A stretch of DNA of 43,810 nt from Thermococcaceae archaeon. Lineage in GTDB: Archaea > Methanobacteriota_B > Thermococci > Thermococcales > Thermococcaceae. Made by a program: the position numbers and the translations under genes. The stretch covers positions 1-43,810 of the forward strand of contig JASGLT010000014.1 of NCBI GenBank assembly GCA_030156945.1, written 5' to 3'. The notes beneath the pieces were generated by a model. That model saw only the letters and a program-made list of their open reading frames with translations, ran no database searches and was not told the origin of the DNA. Positions 23,101 through 24,037 of the stretch are shown piece by piece (position 1 is the first letter of the stretch; each line of letters starts with the position of its first letter).

Positions 23101-23217
23101 TCAAATAATAAGGACTAGGATAAGGAGAAGAAGGATAAGGAGCAGGCTAACGCCCGCGAATCTTGGTTCAGCTTTCGAACTGTTACTCTCGTCGGTCATT
23201 AGCACCATCATAGCCAT
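23101..23217 (-). CDS. Putative ilv-leu operon leader peptide (attenuator type)
   Basis: A 38-codon frame on the operon strand. The first 24 residues are ordinary and hydrophilic (including TDESNSSKAEPRF). The final 14, LLLILLLLILVLII, are all leucine, isoleucine or valine: nine Leu, four Ile, one Val, encoded at 23145-23104 directly before TGA. Those are exactly the end products of the operon. ATG 23217 coincides with the transcript start predicted from the TATA box at 23241-23250, so translation may be leaderless. ATG 23199, with GGTG just upstream, is an alternative start giving 32 residues. Such runs are what bacterial ilv and leu leader peptides use to sense charged tRNA. The alternative is a tiny tail-anchored membrane protein. 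The hydrophobic stretch is short for that and has no flanking basic residues, but the possibility stands. Confidence 0.75.
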   Translation of the reverse strand: MAMMVLMTDESNSSKAEPRFAGVSLLLILLLLILVLII

Positions 23218-23224
23218 CGGGTTT

Positions 23225-23250: not shown

Positions 23251-23424
23251 GTTTCTATCGTGTGCATACATGAATCAATGTACTACAGTGATGTTCAAAC
23301 AATATGGTCACCAGTATGGAACAAAACTGACCAGAAGAGAGAAACTATAGACATTAAAATGACAACACAATTCAAACGTCCTCGCCCCAGAATCCAGTTA
23401 GCTTGACCAAGGAAACTTTTCTAG

Positions 23425-23445
23425 CAAGCTTTTGGAAAAAGCTTG
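23425..23445. repeat. 9-bp hairpin with three-base loop
   Basis: CAAGCTTTT, loop GGA, AAAAGCTTG. A sister hairpin occurs at 24037-24057 as GAAGCTTTT, loop AGG, AAAAGCTTC. The end base pair has changed from C-G to G-C with pairing kept, which suggests selection for structure. The decamer GCTTGACCAA occurs on both sides of this copy (23401-23410 and 23441-23450). Confidence 0.65.
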
Positions 23446-23567
23446 ACCAAAAATGCGCCCTTCCCTTTGAACTTGCCTGTTGAGTGGCGTATGCTTTTCC
23501 GGAAGGCAGCATAACGTGGGTTTAATCTTAAACTCTCCATGCTAATTGCGATTTCAACTTTCTTTTT

Positions 23568-24037
23568 AGCGCTCTTTGAGCGCTATACCATGAGGAAATC
23601 CCGTAAACTCAGCCGATCGGTAAGTAAACCCTTGTAAGAATGAGCCTCTTAGAAGTGCATACTATTTTCCGCCAGCGCTTGCGGGAGGATTTTGTTTGGG
23701 AGTGTGGGGGCGTTAGCCCCCCAGCAACCTTTGCTTGCGCAAAGCTTGGCCAAAAAGTAATTACTCTTTAGATGGAGCCGAAGAGAGCTTGTACGTGCTG
23801 TTCGCTAAGCCAGTTTTTAGGGCTTTTTAAGTCAAAAGTAGCATCTTAACAAGTGGTTTTTACTCTCTTGCGCCCTTCGGGCGCTGTTAAAAGTAAACCC
23901 TCCTCTTTAAAACCTCTCAAGGTGGAAAGCCCTTGAAAGTAAGGCACTTGAAAGAGTTACACTCTTTGATGAAACTTTTCGCCAGAAAAGTTTCTTTCCG
24001 TGGGGCGAAGCCCCACTCCGGGGTTTTAGAGTACAGG
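23568..24037. repeat. Hairpin-island unit, copy 1
   Basis: Ordered elements: hairpin AGCGCTC-TTT-GAGCGCT (23568-23584) followed by ATGAGGAAATCCC; the box CCGCCAGCGCT (23669-23679); hairpin GGGGGC-GTTA-GCCCCC (23706-23721); hairpin GCGCCC-TTC-GGGCGC (23870-23884); hairpin GAAACTTTTC-GCCA-GAAAAGTTTC (23971-23994); hairpin GTGGGGC-GAA-GCCCCAC (24000-24016) followed by TCCGGGG and TAGAGTACAG. Four of these elements recur in the same order in copy 2. Confidence 0.65.

Follow-up and report, generated by a model that had tools for sequence, protein, structure and literature searches.

Putative leader peptides at the branched-chain amino acid and histidine operons of Thermococcales suggest ribosome-mediated attenuation in archaea

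Here we describe a short open reading frame (ORF) just upstream of the branched-chain amino acid (BCAA) biosynthesis operon of a Thermococcaceae archaeon, which ends in 14 consecutive codons for leucine, isoleucine or valine. Taken as a whole, the ORF is best explained as a cis-acting leader peptide through which ribosome-mediated attenuation would control the operon, a reading that we judge from comparative sequence analysis to have a probability of roughly 0.77. Attenuation by leader peptides is known from textbooks as a mechanism of bacteria. The author of the original prediction was aware of no archaeal leader-peptide attenuator, and our search of open-access papers (subscription papers and preprints being outside its scope) agrees, having retrieved no earlier report. 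A transcriptome study of T. kodakarensis also states that control by attenuators or riboswitches had no direct experimental support in Archaea (PMC4247193). The leaders described below suggest that archaea, like bacteria, may sense a missing amino acid by stalling a ribosome.

Within the stretch of DNA that we analysed (the window, 43,810 nucleotides), the ORF lies on the reverse strand, as do all features of the leader and operon given below. It occupies 23217–23101, comprises 38 codons with a TGA stop and is translated as MAMMVLMTDESNSSKAEPRFAGVSLLLILLLLILVLII*. Its C terminus reads LLLILLLLILVLII-stop, so that the 14 putative control codons (23145–23104; 9 Leu, 4 Ile and 1 Val) directly abut the TGA. 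Translation thus confirmed the predicted frame, and chance is excluded as the origin of the run: among 5,000 dinucleotide-preserving shuffles of the 290-nt upstream region, the best ORF tail held 11 Leu, Ile or Val residues in 14 positions (2/5,000) and none held 12 or more, compared with 14 of 14 observed. The leader is the sole match to the pattern (NTN)x10-TGA on either strand of the 2.08-Mb genome, and the single match in each of the genomes G004, G005 and G009 is likewise the ilv leader. Matches to VVILLLIIIV* in four other genomes do not precede BCAA genes, as judged by neighbouring frames. The absence of any Pfam or NCBIfam match to the window leader, together with its uniqueness in the genome, fits the earlier expectation that the peptide does not belong to a protein family encoded elsewhere. 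Rfam searches of the leader also returned nothing, with no T-box match at the gathering threshold and only an unrelated miRNA family at E ≤ 5.

A TATA box (TTTATATG, 23247–23240) with a BRE-like element (GAAACATT) just upstream predicts a transcription start at about 23217–23220. The centre of the TATA box is 26 nt upstream of the leader ATG, and the transcript is therefore predicted to be leaderless; the equivalent spacing is 26–29 nt at the corresponding leaders of G004, G005, G008 and G009. The proposal that the frame begins at the transcription start is consistent with this spacing, and the start itself stays a prediction.

An ilv–leu operon follows on the same strand as had been proposed, but its first gene is not ilvB. 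The order is P131 (131 aa, 23011–22616), ilvB (acetolactate synthase large subunit, 22577–20892), ilvC (ketol-acid reductoisomerase, 20888–19890), leuA (2-isopropylmalate synthase, assigned from sequence and gene order, 19859–18372), leuC (18367–17096), leuD (17099–16602), leuB (16609–15551), a cimA/leuA-like gene of the citramalate synthase type (15561–13996) and ilvD (13999–12347), with a gap of 36 bp between P131 and ilvB. P131 is an unannotated member of a family found, as far as we searched, only in Thermococcales. It has an invariant ANWW motif and no curated Pfam or NCBIfam assignment, with two sub-threshold Pfam matches. A PDB sequence search returned only designed repeat proteins, which were judged spurious, and no PDB fold matched with E ≤ 0.001. 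Six further Thermococcales genomes encode orthologues with 46–55% identity, and most (nearly all) Thermococcales genomes encode a second paralogue elsewhere, behind a UbiA-like gene (its identity read from the translated end) and without a leader. P131 is the gene most directly behind the first leader, and we propose that its orthologue in BCAA operons would be under the control of the BCAA leader.

The design of the leader is conserved within the order. Of 94 Thermococcales genomes, only 7 encode IlvC (that of the window and six others), and a BCAA-run leader stands just before P131 in all seven loci with upstream DNA. In addition to LLLILLLLILVLII in the window, the runs of this first leader are LLLLLLISIVIIIVIIL (G004), LLVIILILLIL (G005), IVVTILIILIIIIA (G008), LLVIILVLLIL (G009), LLLIAIDIILIIIL (G022) and LLLVLITVAIILII (G047). 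Some are interrupted by D, R or A, and the shortest have 9–12 residues. Except in the close pair G005 and G009, the N termini are unrelated between genomes, and the combination of a conserved run with a variable N terminus is what had been predicted for homologous operons. In five genomes, P131 and ilvB are further apart, and a second BCAA-run leader, different from the first, precedes ilvB; in four of the five it is behind its own TATA-like element. All 12 ilv leaders (seven first and five second) stop at TGA. An unbiased scan of eight ilv regions (304 kb, both strands counted) placed 11 of its 12 matches at the two leader sites, and 342 kb of his- and trp-region stretches from the same order, scanned with a somewhat stricter cut-off, gave none. 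In G047, the BCAA leader and P131 are retained on a contig (locus L132) without ilvB nearby, possibly left over from a pathway that has since been lost.

Outside Thermococcales, we examined eight ilv loci in other families within the class and seven in other archaea, and in none did a BCAA leader precede the operon; the device may therefore be restricted to Thermococcales. With the same scan, we recovered ORFs with a run rich in Leu, Ile and Val near the stop before ilv genes in several Bacteroidetes, Ignavibacteria and relatives (L057, L069, L070, L082 and L093), which we took as a positive control; these resemble the archaeal leaders in design, but they are bacterial and have no homologous sequence.

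Codon usage in the last 18 codons of the ilv leaders differs from that in long genes of the same regions. Isoleucine is encoded by ATT (66%), ATC (20%) and ATA (14%), compared with 60% ATA in the genes (P = 3 × 10−23), and there are shifts towards CTT for leucine (P = 1 × 10−5) and GTC for valine (P = 0.001), all P values given here counting related sequences as independent. Variable codon choice had been expected of an attenuator; we found instead a strong bias towards NNU and NNC codons. Such a bias indicates that selection acts on the codons themselves, as expected if particular isoacceptors are measured, and in bacterial leaders the choice of codons has been explained by selective charging of isoacceptors (PMC1183508). 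The bias could be reinforced by a requirement for RNA that is pyrimidine-rich and unstructured.

A parallel arrangement is found at the histidine operons. We inspected 32 of these (L163–L192, L223 and L224), covering all genera and including the genome of the window, and found a leader ORF with two to four His codons beside or near its stop before hisZ in 30 of 30 operons and in the two additional ones. In the window's own genome, this leader reads MVERSTKSGVLSMGASLLFKVTYCHHLF. The usual ending is VSYCHHH*, with the variants HHHLF*, SLHH* and HHPF*, and in one species, in which the first stop is lost, the leader ends in HHHCRLFYN*. The His codons are CAT in 79 cases and CAC in 3, against 15:181 in neighbouring genes. 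Ahead of them, VS[Y/H/P][C/Y/R] is conserved, and the nucleotides GTGAGCTACTGCCATCATCATTGACTGTTCT are well conserved, extending past the stop. Directly after HHH-TGA, the sequence CTRTTCT (in-frame Leu-Phe) is conserved across L163–L192 and lies inside the leader in some species (HHHLF*); it may be an RNA element or what is left of an older stop. We saw no leader at 15 trp operons, 30 homoserine dehydrogenase genes or 3 prephenate dehydratase genes. The trp operons (L193–L207) begin with trpC, which appears leaderless and is behind a conserved TGTCCAAA element that overlaps the promoter and looks like a repressor operator.

That the codons fit the pathway in both ilv and his, two operons unrelated to each other, is the strongest argument that the leaders are sensors of tRNA charging. 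With the conserved position, the cognate runs beside the stop and the selection on codons, this fit makes it very probable that the leader is translated, that ribosomes stall on it and that it acts as an aminoacyl-tRNA sensor. As to how stalling would be converted into a change in expression, the output step is probably, if only by a little, transcription termination; an effect on translation or reinitiation is on the unlikely side, and the remainder falls to other outputs.

The region in which the output would be decided is the 89-nt, pyrimidine-rich spacer between the leader stop and the P131 start (23100–23012), a candidate termination or regulatory region. It contains a U-rich core (CTTTTGTGTGTTTTGTCTCTTT, 23072–23051) that is a candidate site for U-tract termination by FttA and forms the loop of a hairpin (23079–23044) in which CGGGCCC (23079–23073) pairs with GGGCCCG (23050–23044). 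The window spacer folds with −4.3 kcal/mol at 85 °C, and the hairpin is not conserved in relatives, being absent from most other spacers. The Shine–Dalgarno sequence of P131 is GGAGGTG (23024–23018); in the 11 units scored, this element is 12–14 nt upstream of the ATG. As read from the sequence, CTTCCGGG (23083–23076) could alternatively pair with CCCGGAGG (23027–23020), a species-specific interaction (spanning 23083–23020) that would cover the Shine–Dalgarno sequence and is mutually exclusive with the hairpin. Spacers measure 46–89 nt in ilv operons and mostly 50–80 nt in his operons, with only 22–32 nt in L175, L184, L190 and L181. Their T content is 38% (ilv; P = 7 × 10−5) and 35.5% (his; P = 4 × 10−9), compared with 26% in comparable upstream regions, and the second leader of G022 has no U-run before the Shine–Dalgarno sequence. 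Folding at 85 °C predicts no structure at all in 7 of 12 ilv spacers and in 28 of 30 his spacers.

Neither component of a classical RNA switch recurs in these spacers. A conserved terminator hairpin followed by a U-run was not found between leader and gene in the ilv or his spacers, and a mutually exclusive antiterminator pairing had a single candidate, that of the window, which relatives do not share. A conserved RNA switch was considered and set aside after folding of the spacers at 37 and 85 °C and modelling of stalling gave no consistent signal: at 37 °C, stalling raised the modelled accessibility of the Shine–Dalgarno sequence in 2 of 12 units, lowered it in 2 and left it approximately unchanged in 8. 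With no conserved hairpin and no consistent change at the Shine–Dalgarno sequence, a bacterial terminator/antiterminator or ermC-type switch is unsupported as the common mechanism. The original prediction of control by coupled transcription and translation is well supported by sequence for its sensing half; its output half we infer, in a form other than the classical switch.

Archaeal RNA polymerase terminates at U-tracts with the aid of FttA (aCPSF1), a factor that binds U-rich RNA, and FttA and a coupled ribosome have been proposed to be mutually exclusive (PMC8116511; PMC11616081). Given spacers that are mostly U-rich and unstructured and this published mode of termination, we favour U-tract/FttA termination gated by the stalled ribosome. 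In such a scheme, the nearly leaderless transcript would be translated from its 5′ end. When BCAA-tRNAs are plentiful, the ribosome would pass the control codons, terminate at the abutting TGA and depart, exposing the U-rich and mostly unstructured spacer, at which polymerase would terminate (at the U-tract, assisted by FttA/aCPSF1). When leucine, isoleucine or valine is short, the ribosome would stall at the end of the leader, close behind polymerase, and keep FttA off so that the operon is transcribed. We give about even odds to the full proposal, namely hairpin-free attenuation in Thermococcales, at both the ilv–leu and the his operons, in which a stalled ribosome bars FttA/aCPSF1 from the U-rich spacer and the switch is transcription–translation coupling itself. 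Stalling could act with either sign, since a ribosome that stalls can also lose contact with polymerase and thereby favour factor-dependent termination. The few his spacers of 22–32 nt would leave little room for termination before the Shine–Dalgarno sequence; they and the second leader of G022 are exceptions to the scheme. The conserved CTRTTCT after the stop of the his leaders is more than a model of pure codon sensing needs, which counts against the best explanation.

The same sensor might instead act on translation, with stalling refolding the RNA to free the next Shine–Dalgarno sequence or with the terminating ribosome covering it. Pyrimidine stretches in the spacers can pair with GGAGGTG, as CTTCCGGG does with CCCGGAGG in the window, and the short his spacers would suit occlusion; yet the modelled accessibility does not rise consistently on stalling and most spacers are structureless at 85 °C, making translational attenuation an unlikely alternative. 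Another reading dispenses with the empty A site. Arrest of the ribosome by a free amino acid or by the nascent peptide would be in keeping with the conserved VS[Y/H/P][C/Y/R] of the his leaders and with control codons that abut the stop. The critical codons of tnaC are also adjacent to its stop. No residues are conserved ahead of the ilv runs, however, and we regard nascent-chain arrest as very unlikely indeed.

Two further readings do without a sensing ribosome. The region could be an operator, in DNA or RNA, that is bound by a regulatory protein and only happens to read as cognate codons, for which the conservation of GTGAGCTACTGCCATCATCATTGACTGTTCT beyond the stop of the his leaders might speak. 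This is very unlikely, as nothing at the nucleotide level apart from the codons is common to the ilv leaders, the frame is open all the way from the promoter-proximal ATG, and the amino acid fits the pathway in both operons. Alternatively, the ORF could encode a small single-span or tail-anchored membrane protein acting in trans, since 14 hydrophobic C-terminal residues could enter a membrane. We consider this the least probable reading: the N termini are largely unrelated between genomes, some runs are broken and some have as few as 9–12 residues, five genomes carry two different copies per operon, and leaders that end in histidine cannot anchor in a membrane, while the NNU/NNC codon skew would be left unexplained.

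Ribosome-mediated attenuation, the reading that we prefer, has clear bacterial counterparts. The ilv, leu and his attenuators of bacteria (ilvL, leuL and hisL of Escherichia coli and ilvBNC of Corynebacterium glutamicum) likewise rely on a short leader ORF that precedes a biosynthetic operon and contains runs of cognate codons, and share with the archaeal leaders a variable N terminus and non-random synonymous codons. They differ in that the archaeal control codons directly abut the stop and the archaeal spacers, mostly unstructured at 85 °C, have no conserved terminator or antiterminator hairpins. Control of the tnaC type is factor-dependent, relying on Rho and on tryptophan-induced arrest. 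There, too, a ribosome kept at the very end of the leader could block access of the termination factor to its binding site, although the archaeal case would involve stalling on starvation and FttA/aCPSF1 rather than Rho. T-box riboswitches also sense tRNA charging upstream of amino-acid genes, but the archaeal leader has no Rfam match and carries an ORF of cognate codons instead. For the C. glutamicum leader, the title of a paper (Morbach 2000, as cited in PMC13158618) indicates that it forms without a ribosome binding site.

If our reading is true, amino-acid sensing by a stalled ribosome extends to a second domain of life and works in organisms growing near 85–100 °C, where weak hairpins melt. 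The leaders would also provide a natural and, because his leaders occur in Thermococcus, genetically tractable reporter of competition between the ribosome and FttA at the elongation complex, a question that earlier work left open (PMC8116511; PMC11616081). The window also contains, at 23400–23700, an element of about 275 bp with at least five diverged copies (72–78% identity) elsewhere in the genome, together with short, near-exact repeats of 25–39 bp (TTGGTCAAGCTTTT...).
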